A DNA stretch of 64,000 bases, from the NCBI RefSeq assembly GCF_018688315.1, contig NZ_CP061315.1, forward strand, positions 1,674,001 to 1,738,000, given 5' to 3'. Below, in pieces: positions 15,909 through 22,233 of this stretch (position 1 is the stretch's first letter; every line of letters begins with the position of its first letter). A model generated the notes under the pieces. It had not been told where the DNA came from. It searched no databases and saw only the letters and a list, made by a program, of their open reading frames with translations. The DNA is from Polynucleobacter sp. AP-Kolm-20A-A1 (lineage in GTDB: Bacteria; Pseudomonadota; Gammaproteobacteria; Burkholderiales; Burkholderiaceae). Position numbers and translations under genes: made by a program.

Positions 15909-16388
15909 ATGAACAAACTAACCCATTTTGATGCCAGCGGCCAAGCCCACATGGTAAATGTCGGCGATAAGCCCAATACTCATAGAGTAGCTGTTGCTAC
16001 GGGCACAATTTCGATGCTACCCGAAACCTTCAAAATGGTTGAGGCAGGAACCCATAAAAAGGGGGATGTCTTGGGTATCGCGCGTATTGCCGGCATTCAG
16101 GCATCCAAGAAAACATCCGATCTTATTCCTCTATGTCATCCATTGGCCCTGACTCATGTTGGCCTGGAATTTAATCTCAATCCCAAAGATAGCAGCGTCA
16201 CTTGCCAAGTTAAAGCAGAAACCACCGGGCCAACCGGTGTTGAAATGGAAGCCCTCACCGCAGTCCAAGTTGCCCTTCTCACTATCTACGATATGTGCAA
16301 AGCAGTAGATCGAGGCATGGTGATGGGTGATGTGAAACTCTTAGAGAAGAGTGGCGGTAAGAGTGGTGAGTGGAAAGCAGGGAAGTAA
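15909..16388 (+). CDS. moaC: Cyclic pyranopterin monophosphate synthase
   Basis: MoaC forms cyclic pyranopterin monophosphate in molybdenum cofactor synthesis. The 159-residue protein is full length, with [19 protein letters not shown] at the start, the conserved [13 protein letters not shown] around residue 75, and [13 protein letters not shown]. The last 37 codons (from 16278) exist a second time at 18454-18564 in a diverged, mostly synonymous version. The gene in its present form therefore seems to have gained its 3' end, or been separated from its old one, by recombination. No terminator follows it directly. The start is divergent from bepA. Confidence 0.95.
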
Positions 16389-16411
16389 ACAACAATTTCT
16401 GTGATGCTGGG

Positions 16412-16762
16412 CTAGTGGTATTCACCCTGAAAGCAATGTCGAACTTCATGTCCAACGGTATCGTTATTAGTCTTTTTGGTGGTGAAAATTTGACAGGTTC
16501 TTTTAATTTTTCCTGACCAGTCTTTTGCATCATCCCAAAATGAACAAGCATCCAGGGGGTACGAAAAGCCATTATTCCCCCTTCTTTTACTCTCAGTCTC
16601 ACAAGATTTTTGAATATCCCTAACACTTACCCACCTAATGGTGACTTCATTTACTTGGTTTTTACTAGTGCTATATAAGCTATAGGCATCATCCTCAAGC
16701 ACTGCATTAGCCCCAAAGCTAATTAAGCCTAATGAAAAGAATATGGCAATATATCTAAACAT
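16412..16762 (-). CDS. Small exported protein with HEVRHC motif, function unknown
   Basis: This is an unrecognised 116-residue protein. It has a signal peptide (MFRYIAIFFSLGLISFGANA) and a mature part with five cysteines. The C-terminal GHEVRHCFQGEYH contains an HExxH pattern followed by further His. HExxH can mark a zinc site, but the protein is much shorter than known metalloprotease domains. A metal-binding or structural role is equally possible. It lies on the minus strand in the islet downstream of moaC, divergent from a small membrane protein 32 nt away. No ribosome-binding site is obvious. Confidence 0.65.
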   Translation of the reverse strand: MFRYIAIFFSLGLISFGANAVLEDDAYSLYSTSKNQVNEVTIRWVSVRDIQKSCETESKRRGNNGFSYPLDACSFWDDAKDWSGKIKRTCQIFTTKKTNNDTVGHEVRHCFQGEYH

Positions 16763-16794
16763 ATAAAAATAAACAAAATTGGGGGGTGTAAATT

Positions 16795-16977
16795 ATGTGG
16801 GGATGGTCACTTCTCGGAGGAATGGTAACCAGTATTTTTGGGCTCATTGGGTGGTTTGTTGGTATAGCAATAGTTCTTTATATCGCTTATGAGCTTTTCA
16901 AGGAGCTATTTTTTGTTGGCATTTTTCTTCTTGTAGTGGGTTGCGGCTTTTTAATTATGGAGATGATAGCAAAATGA
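16795..16977 (+). CDS. Small two-helix membrane protein
   Basis: This 60-residue hydrophobic protein has two predicted membrane segments (about residues 5-30 and 38-57). The connecting residues YELFKEL carry charges. A run of six G eight nucleotides before the ATG can serve as the ribosome-binding site. Its stop codon overlaps the start of the next small gene as ATGA, which argues that both are translated. I do not recognise a family. It belongs to the moaC islet. Confidence 0.6.
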   Translation: MWGWSLLGGMVTSIFGLIGWFVGIAIVLYIAYELFKELFFVGIFLLVVGCGFLIMEMIAK

Positions 16978-17245
16978 TTAAATTACTTGCTTTCATGCTG
17001 GCATTGATTTCACTGCCTACCGCACAAGCCCAAACTAGCGAGCAAGTATTTATTGAAAAAATTAAAATGGCAAATAAATCACTTAAAGACGCTGAGAAGA
17101 CAAAGGATTATGGAGGCGCTTGTTTGATGTTTTATTCAGCCTTAATGGAGCCTTATGCGAAAATAATCCTAGCGTCTATAGACAGACTGCAGACCTAGCA
17201 AGAAGATCTTGCAATGCCGCTGGAATAAAAGGGCTTACTCCTTAA
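16974..17245 (+). pseudogene. Small exported protein gene, probably frameshifted
   Basis: The frame from the ATG at 16974 gives a signal peptide (MIKLLAFMLALISLPTAQA) and a helical mature part, and stops at 17198 after 74 residues. In the -1 frame the sequence from about 17150 continues to a stop at 17243-17245. That tail encodes CENNPSVYRQTADLARRSCN and more, looks like a normal helical ending and supplies cysteines that could pair with the single Cys upstream. A frameshift between about 17140 and 17160 would join them. If there is no frameshift, the real gene is 16974-17198. The start is coupled (ATGA) to the preceding membrane protein. Function unknown. Confidence 0.5.
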
Positions 17246-17369
17246 TTAAATTCAACATATTTTTGAATTGCATTAAATACTCGCCAAACAATCTCCAGGG
17301 CAAAAAGCTGGTATTTCCCCTGGCTTCATTTCTGAAGCCACTGCATAAGAAATTCATTTTTACTGAAAT

Positions 17370-18248
17370 CTATCTACAGAAGTTTCTAATAATTGCTTTA
17401 GCTTGGTCATTGGCCTGCGCCATTGTGACTAAGCCACCACCAGGTAGTTGTTCGGCGGGTCCATTCCCGTAATACTTCTTATACGAATAGTTTGTATATA
17501 TCTGTATTGTTTGATTTGTGCAATTGACAACACTTTCTTGAATTAATGAAGCCCGTGCATTAGGGTTGAGTTCGAGAAGGCCTTTGTAGTTTGTCATTGT
17601 TTCAACAAGGTAGCCACCACCAGATGGCTTTGTAAAATTTTGATTGAAGAATAGTTCTGGCACCCCGTCATAAACAATTCTTTTCCAATTTGGTTTTGTG
17701 CTGGCCATTTGAGCGGTCTCAAATGGAATACCTTTCTCCATATTGCCAACATAAGCATCAACAATGCCATATACGGGAGTTGAAACGGTGCAAACGGTTA
17801 AGGTAGGGGTATCCCCTTCGACTGATTTGCCGTTTGAAACTAGAGTTTGACCATCCCTAGAACGCTGTATTAGCCTCGCCTGTTTTCCGCCGGTATACCA
17901 ATACCAAATGTCTGAATCCCCATTTGACTGCATAAACGTGTATTGCCAAATATCGTCCGCTACCTTTGTTTTTGAAGATGTGTCTTGATAGCGCAGCATG
18001 TCAGGCTTTGCACCTTTACCTGCAAGGTACCTTATAGTCTTGCCGTTATTATCACTTCTGAACATGACTCCCCAGCCATTTTGACAGTCGGTAGCATAAA
18101 CTCGCCCCTCGTAATCCATTAATGCCAGAGCATTTGAGCTTAAGAAAAGTGTCGCTAAGAGAGTGAGTAATTTTGTCATCATGGGGGGGGTAATTCGCTT
18201 ATTAAAAATAGAATAAATATTTGCTGATGAATATAGCACTTCTATCAA
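17370..18248 (-). CDS. Exported protein of unknown function in the moaC islet
   Basis: This open frame has 292 codons. The likely translation start is the tandem ATG at 18182/18179 (MMTKLLTLLATLFLSSNALA), giving a secreted protein of about 270 residues. The longer start at 18248 would bury the signal peptide. The mature part is rich in aromatic and polar residues (DIWYWYTGGKQ, YTNYSYKKYYGNG) with several cysteines (DCQNGWG, TVCTV, VVNCTNQ, NFCR). This looks like an extracytoplasmic beta-rich domain, but I recognise no family. Eight C directly precede the ATG on its strand, and I see no Shine-Dalgarno sequence. Confidence 0.65.
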   Translation of the reverse strand: MIEVLYSSANIYSIFNKRITPPMMTKLLTLLATLFLSSNALALMDYEGRVYATDCQNGWGVMFRSDNNGKTIRYLAGKGAKPDMLRYQDTSSKTKVADDIWQYTFMQSNGDSDIWYWYTGGKQARLIQRSRDGQTLVSNGKSVEGDTPTLTVCTVSTPVYGIVDAYVGNMEKGIPFETAQMASTKPNWKRIVYDGVPELFFNQNFTKPSGGGYLVETMTNYKGLLELNPNARASLIQESVVNCTNQTIQIYTNYSYKKYYGNGPAEQLPGGGLVTMAQANDQAKAIIRNFCR

Positions 18249-18453
18249 TATTGCAGTGCATACATTTTAAGAAATAGCCTAGCATTCCATACATCCTTGT
18301 ATTTACATTGAAATCTGAAAGCTATCTCTACCCCATCCCGTTTCGGATTCAGCTAACCTCCCAAGAGCCTTGAATTCTTGCTAGATTCTTGCTCTAATGA
18401 AGTCTTCTTCGCCGTGATGCTCGCAATAAAGTCAGCCATTAATCATTACCCCC
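18249..18453. other. Non-coding end of the moaC islet
   Basis: No credible gene is visible. The region holds two direct copies of ATTCTTGCT (18374-18382 and 18385-18393) and ends in a run of six C at 18449-18454. Homology to moaC resumes exactly there. No integrase, transposase or inverted-repeat terminus is visible. Confidence 0.5.
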
Positions 18454-18564
18454 CTCACAATCTACGATATGTGCAAAGCAGTGGACCGCGGCATGGTCAT
18501 GGGTGACGTGAAGCTACTTGAGAAGAGTGGTGGGAAATCAGGAGAGTGGAAAGCGGAGAGCTAA
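18454..18564 (+). pseudogene. Detached 3' end of a second moaC copy
   Basis: These 37 codons, including the stop, encode [20 protein letters not shown] and the rest of the MoaC C-terminus. They match 16278-16388 at 90 of 111 positions. All differences are synonymous except in the last two sense codons (ES here, GK in moaC). A block of 23 nt (18460-18482 and 16284-16306) is identical. No start codon or upstream moaC sequence is present, so this is a remnant. It is followed after 22 nt by a strong terminator, which suggests that this is the original end of the moaC transcription unit. Confidence 0.9.
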
Positions 18565-18586
18565 TCAACACCTAAACCAAGATAAT

Positions 18587-18614
18587 AAAAAAACCACCCG
18601 AAGGTGGTTTTTTT
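18587..18614. terminator. Bidirectional intrinsic terminator
   Basis: A-run plus ACCACC, a CGAA tetraloop, then GGTGGT plus a T-run give a 12-bp stem with a T-tail on both strands. It serves the omp-like gene on the minus strand. On the plus strand it probably served the ancestral moaC, whose detached 3' end lies just upstream. Confidence 0.9.
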
Positions 18615-18634
18615 ATAAAGCATTAAAACTTCAA

Positions 18635-19324
18635 TTAGAACTTGTAACCCACACCAACCAATATTTGGTAAGCGCTCGGGGCTCCAGGGTTGAAGTTAAC
18701 ATTAGTGCCAGCAGCAATAGAACTAGTCATTTGCGGCTTGCTGTAACTCATGTAGTTACCTTCAGCAAAACCATAAATTCCGCTAGTAATCATCTGCTTG
18801 TAGCCTAGGCCAACGATATAGCCGCTTGCAGTAGCAGTGTTGCTGTTAGAACCACCGCCGCTGACTTTAGCTTGAAGATTCTCCATGGAATAACCAGCTT
18901 TTAAATACACCAACGCATCTTTATTTAATACATAACCTGGGGTTACGTAAATATTTGCACGATTAGAGATTTGATAGTTGTAATTGCCGGAATTACCTGA
19001 AGCACCGCCAGTCCAGTTGGTCGAGATATTAGAGGTATTTTGATTTAAAAATGAATAATCTGCGCCAAGGCCAAGAGTGTATTGAGGGGTCAGTGAAAAG
19101 GTATACCCAAGACCAGCGATCAATGGGACATTACCGTTGCTCGAAGTGCCAGTGCCTTGCCCGGTAGCCGAGATCTGACCAGTAATAGTCGGGCTGCTAT
19201 TGGCAATCGTGTTATTTTCATAGCCGGTAGATAACTGACCATAAAAACCTTGAAATACGCTCTGAGCAGATGCGGTTCCTGCCAAAAGACTAACTACAAC
19301 AGATGCTAATAATCGCTTTTTCAT
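18635..19324 (-). CDS. Outer-membrane beta-barrel protein (opacity/Omp25-like)
   Basis: This 229-residue protein has a signal peptide (MKKRLLASVVVSLLAGTASA) and alternating amphipathic strands. It ends VGVGYKF; the C-terminal aromatic residue is the usual outer-membrane insertion signal. The features fit an eight-stranded barrel of the outer_membrane_beta-barrel (Omp25/opacity) type. Loops rich in Ser, Asn and Gly (SGGGSNSNTATASG) look surface-exposed. It has its own sigma-70-like promoter, a clear AGGA ribosome-binding site and its own terminator, so it is monocistronic. The exact function is unknown. Confidence 0.85.
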   Translation of the reverse strand: MKKRLLASVVVSLLAGTASAQSVFQGFYGQLSTGYENNTIANSSPTITGQISATGQGTGTSSNGNVPLIAGLGYTFSLTPQYTLGLGADYSFLNQNTSNISTNWTGGASGNSGNYNYQISNRANIYVTPGYVLNKDALVYLKAGYSMENLQAKVSGGGSNSNTATASGYIVGLGYKQMITSGIYGFAEGNYMSYSKPQMTSSIAAGTNVNFNPGAPSAYQILVGVGYKF

Positions 19325-19360
19325 TTATTTAATCCTTTTTTATTAAGTGCAGCTTGATTG

Positions 19361-19390
19361 ATTATATTTACCTTAATGAGGGCATGTCAG
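19361..19390 (-). promoter_or_regulatory. Sigma-70-type promoter of the beta-barrel gene
   Basis: On the minus strand, CTGACA (19385-19390, five of six matches to the -35 box) and TATAAT (19361-19366, perfect -10) are separated by 18 nt. The predicted start site is about 30 nt before the ATG. A run of seven G (minus strand, 19402-19408) lies 11 nt upstream of the -35 box. Confidence 0.75.
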
Positions 19391-19487
19391 CTAAATGGTT
19401 ACCCCCCCTCAATAAACACTTAAATAACTGATTTTGTTGGGAAAATACCACCTTAAGTAACTTAGCCTAACAATCAAACAATAAACT

Positions 19488-21395
19488 TTAATGCTTAACA
19501 GGAAAATTTAGTATTCCATCTTTTACTGCGGCATCTACAAAATACAGCGAGCCCTCTTTAGATAAGTGAGAAGTATCAATTCCAATCGGACTAAGAAGAT
19601 TAGTTGAGGTAGAAAGTAGACACCCTTCGGAATTGCATAGAACCCCAATAGGCGAGACAAAATTAATTCCTAGTTGAGAAGAAATATTCATCATTCTGAG
19701 GTCTGCCTCCCTGGACAAAAAATTAAATCTTTTAAATGTTCTGACCTCTTTACCCTCGGAAAATAATATAGAGGCTAATCTAGGTTGATAGACATCAAAT
19801 ACTGGAAAATTTCCAATCAAGGTTATATTTTTGACGCTAGCCTCTCTAAGGACATCTACAGTACTCCGAATATTCATATCGGTTAATTTATTAAATTGAT
19901 TTATTCCGTCATATTGAGTCCAATTGGCAGCCAATATGACCATCTCTGGATGATTTCTTTTAATCGATTCGAGAATAGTTTTATTGTGGTTAATGCAGAT
20001 TTTATTTTCCGCCAGCGCTTCTGATCTCTCTCCTCTAGGCTCAAATAAAAGCAATGGCGGACATGCTGACAAGCTGGCGTCATATAGATGAAATCCACGC
20101 AATTCAGACTGCGCCTTTAGTCCCGCATAAAGATGGCCAGCATGCGAGTCCCCCCAGAGGTAAATAATTGGCTTTCTATTGACCTTTTCTAGAGGTAAAT
20201 CCTTGCAATTGGACTGACAATAAGCAGAATCTGATTGAAAATTAAACTTATCTTGGGCAACATTCCTAAAAGGATAGCCTTCACGGTCAAATACATTAAG
20301 ACCCGCAAAACCAATCAAACCCATTACTAAAACCAAGAATGTGGCCCTTGATTTTAAAGGGGCATGCTTGAGGGGTTTTTCGATATAGGCATAGGTGGCC
20401 CAAGCCAAAATTACCGAGCCTATTATTAGAAAAATATAGGTCGATGCAGATGGCTCCTGAATGTGACTCATTCGCCAAAAGGTAAGGACTGGCCAGTGCC
20501 ACAAATAAAGTGGGTAACTGATAAGGCCAACCCACACAAGCAAGCGATTGGATAGTATTGCGCAATTCACCCATGACTTTTCGGATGCAATCAGACAGGC
20601 TGCACCAATAACAGGAATTGAAGCCCACCAACCTGGAAACTGCTTATTTGCACTAATTAGAGCGAGGCCCATGAGAAGTAAAAATACTCCCATCCACGAA
20701 AGCAACTCCTTAAGCTTTAGCCATTTTTTACCAGTAAAAAGGCTAGTGATTTGACTCAATAAAGAACCAATTAAAATTTCCCACACTCTAGAAATAGGGG
20801 AATAAAAATCGGTGGATAAATTTTCTGTAGAAAAGTAAATATTTACCGCAAAAGATAAGGTGATGGCAATCAGAATAATTTTAGAAAATGAAATATTCCA
20901 TTTTCTAAAAATCCAAAAAATGAGTGGGGAAAATAGATAGAACTGCTCTTCAACAGCCAGCGACCAAAGGTGCAATAACGCTTTCGTCTCGGCAGAATTA
21001 TCAAAATAGCTAACTTCTTGCCACAAAACTAAGTTGGAAATAAAGCAGGCTCCTGCTGCAATATGTTTTCCAAGCTGCGAAAACTCTGCAGTACCATATT
21101 CCAGCCACCCACAAACATACGCGAATGCCAGCACGACAATAAGGGAAGGGAAAATTCTTGCAACCCTTCTACAGTAAAAATCTATGAAGCTAAATGTATG
21201 CTGATTTAAATTCGAAGTAATAATTGATGTAATAAGGTAACCAGAAATTACAAAAAAAATATCGACCCCAATAAATCCGCCATTCAAGAATTCTGGAAAT
21301 ACGTGGTAGATAACAACAAATAAGATAGCAAGACCACGAAGGCCATCAATATCTGGTCGATATTTAAGGTGTAATTGAGAATGCGGATTTAACAT
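19488..21395 (-). CDS. OafA/YrhL-type acyltransferase with C-terminal SGNH domain
   Basis: This inner-membrane protein is likely to O-acetylate LPS O-antigen or another surface glycan. Residues from about 11 start the acyltransferase-3 domain (KYRPDIDGLRGLAILFVVIYH) with about ten membrane helices. The C-terminal third (from about 400) is a periplasmic SGNH hydrolase-like domain with YLWGDSHAGHL and DTSHLS, the catalytic Ser and Asp-x-x-His. I chose the ATG at 21395 because the family N-terminus begins right after it and a TATAAT lies at 21450-21455. The frame stays open to a GTG at 21539. The gene is visibly more AT-rich than its neighbours, consistent with transfer. Confidence 0.88.
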   Translation of the reverse strand: MLNPHSQLHLKYRPDIDGLRGLAILFVVIYHVFPEFLNGGFIGVDIFFVISGYLITSIITSNLNQHTFSFIDFYCRRVARIFPSLIVVLAFAYVCGWLEYGTAEFSQLGKHIAAGACFISNLVLWQEVSYFDNSAETKALLHLWSLAVEEQFYLFSPLIFWIFRKWNISFSKIILIAITLSFAVNIYFSTENLSTDFYSPISRVWEILIGSLLSQITSLFTGKKWLKLKELLSWMGVFLLLMGLALISANKQFPGWWASIPVIGAACLIASEKSWVNCAILSNRLLVWVGLISYPLYLWHWPVLTFWRMSHIQEPSASTYIFLIIGSVILAWATYAYIEKPLKHAPLKSRATFLVLVMGLIGFAGLNVFDREGYPFRNVAQDKFNFQSDSAYCQSNCKDLPLEKVNRKPIIYLWGDSHAGHLYAGLKAQSELRGFHLYDASLSACPPLLLFEPRGERSEALAENKICINHNKTILESIKRNHPEMVILAANWTQYDGINQFNKLTDMNIRSTVDVLREASVKNITLIGNFPVFDVYQPRLASILFSEGKEVRTFKRFNFLSREADLRMMNISSQLGINFVSPIGVLCNSEGCLLSTSTNLLSPIGIDTSHLSKEGSLYFVDAAVKDGILNFPVKH

Positions 21396-21487
21396 GGTCG
21401 GCAATAAGAATTGCTTATCTAAAATATAGTCTTTATGTAATAAATAATGATTATAAATACCCAGACCCCTGAAAAGGCTAGGTTGAG

Positions 21488-21509
21488 AAGCCCTCTGAAT
21501 TGAGGGCTT
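21488..21509. other. Inverted repeat upstream of the acyltransferase
   Basis: AAGCCCTC, a six-base spacer and GAGGGCTT form a perfect 8-bp stem about 95 nt before the chosen start. No T-run follows on either strand. It could be an operator or a leader hairpin. A run of seven C lies at 21521-21527. Confidence 0.5.
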
Positions 21510-21651
21510 GATCAAAAGCACCCCCCCTCTATGCAGCACAAGAATGTGCTCGCCTTACTTAGAGCCATAGATCAAAATTTGCAGGTCTTCATTCACTAAA
21601 CATGCTTTATATCTAGCATCTAAAAAATATGGGAAGAATCTAATTGGAATG

Positions 21652-21708: not shown

Positions 21709-22233
21709 TTATTTTCCAATCCTGCATTCTGAAGGCAGCAATTGTGAGATTAAATTTGTCTCTGTGGATCTACATGACCATCCGCCTGCCCAAGTCGAAC
21801 CCTCTGGCTTAGATAAATCAATTGGTTTCGGTGAATTTGCATCGGGCTCATTTGTTGGCACTAGATGCAAAGTATTCTTTCCCTCAGGCGCAACGGCTAC
21901 CTGATAGTCAATTGCAATTGCTCCTGATGGTGTGATTTCAATTAACTTCACACTGCGAGTTGGCGTGAAGGTAAATGCCCCGTGGGTTGCCTCATCCATC
22001 GGTACAGTGCCACGACTAGCAAATGCCTCTGTCACGGCTAGCTTTGCGCTTGAGGATAAATTCATCCCCTCTACAACACGACTGCGTGCAATGTAATCCT
22101 GGTACTGCGGAACAGCTACCGCCACCAAAATTCCAATGATGGCCACTACAACCATGACTTCAATCAGCGTAAAACCCGCCTCTTCATTCTTCCCATGATC
22201 TTGCTTTAGGTGTTCTTGATTTATGTTTTGCAT
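21709..22233 (-). CDS. Type IV pilin-like prepilin
   Basis: This is a type IVa pilin or pseudopilin. The 174-residue precursor has a hydrophilic 20-residue leader ending in G20. The class III cleavage site GFTLIEVMVVVAIIG follows, with Phe at +1 and Glu at +5. The hydrophobic alpha1 helix continues to about residue 45. Two C-terminal cysteines (WSCRS and PSEC) form the expected D-region disulfide. The gene stands alone with its own terminator. No assembly ATPase, secretin or prepilin peptidase gene is in the window, so the machinery must be encoded elsewhere. GGGAG before the ATG is the likely ribosome-binding site, beside a small GAGGT/ACCTC hairpin (22248-22262). Confidence 0.88.
   Translation of the reverse strand: MQNINQEHLKQDHGKNEEAGFTLIEVMVVVAIIGILVAVAVPQYQDYIARSRVVEGMNLSSSAKLAVTEAFASRGTVPMDEATHGAFTFTPTRSVKLIEITPSGAIAIDYQVAVAPEGKNTLHLVPTNEPDANSPKPIDLSKPEGSTWAGGWSCRSTETNLISQLLPSECRIGK

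Follow-up and report, generated by a model that had tools for sequence, protein, structure and literature searches.

Integrases that target sites inside genes are described as usually restoring the gene that they enter, and a close example is the e14 prophage in icd of Escherichia coli K-12, which supplies a replacement 165-bp segment with 12 nucleotide exchanges and two conservative residue changes (PMC11148124). Here, we describe a locus at the 3′ end of moaC in Polynucleobacter sp. AP-Kolm-20A-A1, whose 1.92-Mb genome is a single contig; the stretch analyzed, referred to as the window, comprises 64,000 nucleotides (contig NZ_CP061315.1, positions 1,674,001 to 1,738,000), and all coordinates are those of the window. 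The published account of e14 describes integration inside a housekeeping gene, an element-supplied 3′ end with mostly silent changes, and a displaced native end, all of which the moaC locus resembles (PMC11148124). Features of this kind found at moaC are a core shared by both ends, replaced and displaced gene ends, and empty sites in relatives (19 of 61 regions). The gene, however, is a different one, and e14 is a cryptic prophage, whereas the islands at moaC span 3.4 to 11.3 kb, and none of their scanned proteins was recognized as structural for a phage.

Several other systems share individual traits with these islands. The satellites known as phage-inducible chromosomal islands (PICIs) and phage-inducible chromosomal minimalist islands (PICMIs) are likewise small, begin with an integrase gene, and carry primase/AAA genes and AlpA (present in one moaC island, L130), and in helper-embedded PICIs, as in the moaC islands, a direct-repeat motif stands doubled to the left and right of the att core (PMC10803314, PMC10111431). 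As presented in these sources, PICMIs reside at fis and are defined by int, alpA, and primase genes, whereas the motif of the moaC islands differs in sequence and AlpA was recognized in only one of the moaC-island proteins scanned. Salmonella genomic island 1 (SGI1) also integrates at a 3′ end, that of thdF, and has a secondary site that shares conserved regions with the primary one, but it is described as transferred by a conjugative helper plasmid, with an att site formed by the last 18 bp of thdF, in contrast to the roughly 96 coding bases replaced at moaC (PMC2297512). In a related genus, the genomic island CMGI-A of Cupriavidus metallidurans is bounded by moaC (Rmet_4428), but it is an 87-kb region on a chromid, and neither an integrase nor a tail or att site is named in its table entry (PMC7019866). 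In the open-access literature, we found no report of moaC or pntB (a second target, treated below) as a gene-restoring integration site, nor any of phage satellites in Polynucleobacter.

From sequence comparison, we consider the locus to be a remnant of a moaC-targeting integrative island that has lost its integrase and kept its gene-restoring tail, a reading to which we assign a probability of about 0.92. The tyrosine integrase of such an island would have recombined an attP site, which had the core ATGTGCAA and carried a full substitute for the moaC 3′ tail, with the identical core in codons 129 to 131 of moaC. The body of the host gene would thereby have been joined to the island tail, leaving MoaC intact, and the host's own tail and terminator would have been pushed to the far end of the island; later deletion of the integrase gene and the left arm would have left this copy immobile.

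The last 111 nt of moaC (16278 to 16388) recur at 18454 to 18564 with 90 identical positions, and the 17 codon differences between the two ends comprise 15 synonymous changes and two nonsynonymous ones, the latter in the last two sense codons (GK versus ES). The repeat, its conserved residues, and an identical 23-nt block within it had been reported in a preliminary description of this DNA and were all confirmed, as was the presence of a terminator behind the distal copy only: a hairpin whose 14-nt arms are perfectly complementary lies, together with a T run, 3′ of that copy, and none was detected in a scan of the 110 nt past the intact moaC stop. A repeat search stretches the tail pair to 125 nt at 80%, with similarity starting slightly upstream of 16278, and the displaced tail is free of stops.

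MoaC was found in 143 of 151 genomes of the genus, with more than one match in 25 of them, including the genome of the window. We fetched 60 moaC regions, 20 for their second MoaC match and 40 others that looked well assembled; because they were chosen on these grounds, proportions among them are not those of a random sample. A second moaC end lies downstream of moaC in 19 of the 20 second-match regions, two of these ends being weak (L133, L134); in the exception, L121, the site is empty. (The genome to which L121 belongs, G031, contains four MoaC matches despite its empty moaC 3′ site.) With the window added, the 61 regions of this first batch fall into 13 with an integrase, 19 with an empty site, 8 with a tail and no integrase (the window among them), 2 with only a leader relic, and 19 with other inserts; leader relics occur in 8 of the 48 integrase-less regions. 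A chance origin of the repeat in the window is excluded because other genomes show this arrangement at the corresponding position. Twenty further regions added four that show a second end (L353, L355, L366, and L369, one of them with two), and L362 was too short to judge. The region in genome G433 (L369) holds at least two displaced moaC tails and integrase fragments behind moaC, a serial pile-up of islands.

In 13 of the 60 fetched regions, a tyrosine integrase of about 327 amino acids (aa) is encoded directly behind moaC, starting 74 to 86 nt past the moaC stop, and in 12 of the 13, a second moaC end follows 3.4 to 11.3 kb further on; the contig of the thirteenth (L154) ends too early to show one. 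The preliminary description had proposed looking for the junction with other cargo and for larger versions carrying an integrase, and both exist, with the integrase as first gene. The integrase of L127 matches PF00589 above the cut-off and an integrase N-terminal domain just above it, and the R, HxxR, H, and Y positions, which we take to be the catalytic residues of tyrosine recombinases, are invariant in 10 aligned sequences. Relatives at the same site have an integrase gene at the edge of the island, adjoining the target gene; the window copy does not, an integrase and a leader relic having been sought in it and neither found. The largest island, the 11.3-kb one of G119, is enlarged by ORFs (open reading frames) that look transposase-like by eye (L132, 6073 to 12244), presumably IS3-like and IS30-like.

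Insertion sites were assigned for genus integrase matches of at least 366 bits and for family matches with a locus. Among the 151 genus genomes, there are 28 such matches; as checked on the fetched loci, 14 lie directly behind moaC, including one whose contig begins within the moaC tail, and the other 14 lie behind pntB; a second pntB end is present in 10 of the 14 pntB islands (one weak at the protein level), and the other four lie on short stretches. Family-wide, 76 of 299 genomes have an integrase match at an E value of ≤1e−50, and of the best 30 family loci, 12 follow moaC, with 10 of these 12 belonging to six other genera, 3 follow pntB, and 15 are at other sites; one of the integrases is identical to a Ralstonia soli protein (L022). 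Of the 10 moaC islands found in other genera, 7 have a second tail on the DNA that was fetched. In a tree of 55 integrases, those at moaC in other genera form one clade (support 100/99), as do those at pntB (99/95). The pntB clade is nested among the Polynucleobacter moaC integrases, with joining branches of moderate support (89/91 and 92/94), and the strongly supported branches alone are compatible with a single moaC group; the simplest reading of the tree is that the integrase moved once from moaC to pntB. A single-sequence integrase search of viral contigs returned five stretches fitting a pattern, none encoding a relative, and a viral search with an integrase alignment gave nothing close (at best 47% identity among the best 80 of 368 loci). 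Phage records contained 361 integrase matches, all below 60%, and plasmid records contained 2,455, two of them at 60 to 80%. The window segment 15909 to 18620 matched 13 plasmid records; the three listed are short matches to part of moaC, and one other record reaches at least 99%.

The preliminary description had also suggested that the distal copy is the native end and that the replacement tail came in with foreign DNA, a reading that the comparisons support. Empty sites consist of moaC, usually a terminator, and a convergent pilin gene 53 to 109 nt off, and a terminator stands behind moaC at 17 of 19 empty sites, as against 1 of the 13 sites that carry an integrase and none of the 8 that have a tail but no integrase. 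Terminators being common at empty sites and rare at integrase-bearing ones, the distal copy in the window, with its native-type terminator, looks like the native moaC end. Behind distal tails, a terminator was found in 8 of 19 scored (L133 left out), namely, in 7 of the 8 tails within 110 nt of the pilin gene and in the window. The uninterrupted strains that had been anticipated do exist, as these moaC-terminator sites, but the neighboring gene there encodes the pilin and not the expected outer membrane protein.

Where the crossover would have taken place is indicated by paired gene ends in other islands. In the tail pairs of L231 and L234, both from other genera, matching starts exactly at moaC nt 385, with ATGTGCAA, and the pntB pairs of L209, L211, and L214 diverge on either side of ATGGTCAA. 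The crossover core is therefore likely to be ATGTGCAA, at 16293 to 16300 and 18469 to 18476 in the window, and the 23-nt block, which had been taken as the junction and is indeed identical in both copies, probably contains it as a stretch of only about 8 nt.

The cores are flanked on both sides by repeat doublets with a spacing of 11 bp, such as TTGTCCAAATcTTGTCCAA at +138/+149 and about −111/−100. The repeated word differs between islands and agrees between the ends of one island (TGTCCA, TTGCTC, GGCCCA, TGTCCT, TGCTCC, CCCAAT, and others): same-word doublets occur at both ends of 24 of 29 moaC or pntB islands, with L125 scored by its inner right end and L216 left out, compared to 5 of 560 control placements. 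In 1.2 million strand-bases of background, the most frequent doublet was met a single time. We infer that the doublets are arm sites of the integrase. At the right end of the window islet, the doublet CTTGCTagattCTTGCTC (18377 to 18394) agrees at 35 of 42 nt with the right end of L125's inner island, a match equaled in none of 500 shuffles, and its 18-nt pattern occurs once in its own genome; a left doublet was sought in the window and is absent.

Because the integrase, the left arm, and the leader relic are missing, the window's place among these islands depends on its two paired tails, on the core, and on a single doublet for which L125 is the one matching relative. The preliminary description had left three options side by side, namely, decay, mobilization in trans, and homologous recombination. 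The best fit is decay of an integrase-type island, given that the right arm doublet survives and the integrase and left arm are gone; the other two are less favored. Homologous recombination within moaC would have imported a foreign end along with flanking DNA, with no site-specific step for the window copy. The missing integrase and left arm suit this explanation, as do the unrelated inserts, with neither a second tail nor an integrase, between moaC and the pilin gene in 19 of the 61 first-batch regions; we nevertheless think it very unlikely, given that a doublet sits at the expected place ahead of the distal core, that the 23-nt block holds that core, and that integrase-bearing relatives share the architecture.

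Under mobilization in trans, the islet would be a nonautonomous unit of the same family, mobile in the past or still, which would leave its origin as proposed and alter only its mobility. The presence of the core and right doublet and a displaced tail without stops would agree with such a unit, but the left doublet is missing, and the two PF00589 matches of the genome, located much as matches in other listed closed genomes are, presumably represent XerC and XerD; there is no match to the islands' integrase at an E value of ≤1e−40. Moreover, the ORFan cargo has no second copy in 186 genus genomes, where only its own genome matched. (This cargo is a 270-aa ORF that retrieved only itself from a search of 5.8 billion proteins, with 757 candidates scored.) We accordingly hold mobilization in trans to be very unlikely as well, with loss of mobility through deletion the better account of the remnant.

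The closest relative, G422 (86% over the stretch from M48 to moaC), differs from the proximal tail of the window at 4 of 96 positions and from the distal tail at 21 of 96, and the 264 nt ahead of the core differ at 39 positions. Tail versus body (4/87 versus 39/264) gives a Fisher p of 0.013, a comparison chosen post hoc and suggestive only, and the divergence of this tail is the lowest among 260 pairs with similar body divergence. G422 has a decayed second moaC end preceded by sequence resembling a relic of a TGTCC-type end, with different genes inside. A plain tandem duplication of the moaC end within the lineage, already doubted in its recent form by the preliminary description, might be suggested by the closeness of the copies but has next to no probability, since 21 of 111 bases differ, 15 of the 17 changed codons are synonymous, G422 is far nearer to the proximal copy, and the arrangement recurs in other genomes.

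Several observations weigh against decay of a moaC-targeting island as the history of this locus. Beyond its lack of an integrase, left arm, and leader relic, the window doublet's 18-nt pattern occurs 26 times in the 186 genus genomes (the reversed-pattern control, once), nearly always away from moaC; only the window's occurrence and the left end of L125 are known to lie there. Five of the 29 islands have no matching doublets under the criteria used. Only in L231 and L234 does similarity start at the core; in the other moaC islands, it begins 30 to 61 nt upstream, and in L124, the two ends are identical ahead of the core but have diverged around it. Neither pattern is expected from a simple crossover at the core. 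Ten distal tails that are further from the pilin gene, or have none in reach, show no terminator; these may be inner tails of piled-up islands. A separate comparison of the two 3′ ends, proposed earlier, was run on the 76 nt past the core, which do not distinguish the tails of elements from native ones; for each window copy, the best matches come from a mixture of classes. Finally, G422 has the proximal tail in common with the window, but its right end is a different one and decayed. A single event therefore does not suffice, and so the locus would have seen more than one island, or one shared island would have been reshaped in each lineage.

Among the island proteins scanned, which represent part of the ORFs, no phage structural, terminase, or conjugation genes were recognized. 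They include AAA_25 proteins with primase C-terminal or NrS-1 polymerase domains, matches to phrog_4756, a helix-turn-helix regulator, and variable cargo; primase/AAA matches come from L119, L130, L132, L135, and L138, and AlpA from L130 alone among the moaC-island proteins. Islands also encode small HGGxSTG proteins, and the three tested against NCBIfam all matched. A family label for the whole nine-member ORF cluster was cut back to those three, two members being moaC-tail ORFs joined through a fused ORF in L125 (4648 to 5082), where an inner displaced moaC tail runs in frame into an HGGxSTG gene to give 144 aa. Defense-related matches are strong in L226, from another genus (PD-Lambda-2 and dCTPase models), and partial in L130 (several models), and the island of L231, also from another genus, encodes an FRG protein.

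Table 1. Features of the moaC locus and its right-hand flank, in window coordinates.
Feature	Position	Strand	Remark
Intact moaC, 159 aa	15909..16388	+	ORF; host-derived up to the core and element-derived in the 3′ tail beyond (proposed)
23-nt block identical to 18460–18482, holding the proposed left core ATGTGCAA	16284..16306	+	Core at 16293–16300
Replacement moaC 3′ tail, element-brought (proposed)	16301..16388	+	End GGGAAGTAAAC resembles that of L129; no terminator behind
Decayed island body (proposed)	16389..18376		Integrase, leader relic, and left arm doublet all sought, none found
ORF, 116 aa	16412..16762	−	Start signal-peptide-like by eye; no family
ORF, 60 aa	16795..16977	+	Hydrophobic by eye; no Pfam family
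ORF, ~73 aa (85 aa from upstream TTG)	16977..17198	+	Start signal-peptide-like by eye; no Pfam family
ORF, 270 aa, cargo ORFan	17370..18182	−	Adhesin_E similarity subthreshold (22.1 bits; cut-off, 23.7)
Right arm-type doublet CTTGCT-N5-CTTGCTC, 11-bp spacing	18377..18394	+	92 and 81 nt ahead of the distal core
Proposed right core ATGTGCAA	18469..18476	+	
Displaced moaC 3′ end, apparently native	18469..18564	+	Repeat identity to intact end, 90/111; terminator follows
moaC terminator hairpin, native-type	18585..18616		Perfect 14-nt arms
Outer-membrane-protein-like gene, outside the islet	18635..19324	−	No Pfam family
Pilin gene, right-hand neighbor of moaC at empty sites	21709..22233	−	

Beyond the islet, the outer-membrane-protein-like gene and an acyltransferase-SGNH gene (18635 to 21539) lie between the moaC-type terminator and the pilin gene. 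The former has relatives in 35 other genus genomes of the 186, with identities of up to 54%. Relatives of the acyltransferase also occur behind moaC in L122 and L140, so the interval between moaC and the pilin gene looks like a general hot spot. In the region of the closest relative (L353, about 1750 to 1830), a short tandem duplication near the start of moaC shifts the reading frame there.

What began as an odd repeat is now a mapped integration hot spot, with an integrase at moaC in 14 of 151 genus genomes and at pntB in 14, and the set of islands forms a series from integrase-bearing to decayed, in which the covarying end doublets make it possible to tell which kind of integrase a remnant has lost. 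The islands are a clear candidate for target-gene switching via a shared short core, and those of other genera bring matches to defense genes (L226). It is possible, if short of probable, that the moaC and pntB islands constitute an unrecognized phage-satellite-like family of the Burkholderiaceae, whose integrases would have moved from moaC to pntB by reusing the chance-shared core ATGNNCAA, re-tailoring the gene end, and keeping the doubled arm sites, and whose members would pile up serially at moaC with ORFan and antiphage cargo.

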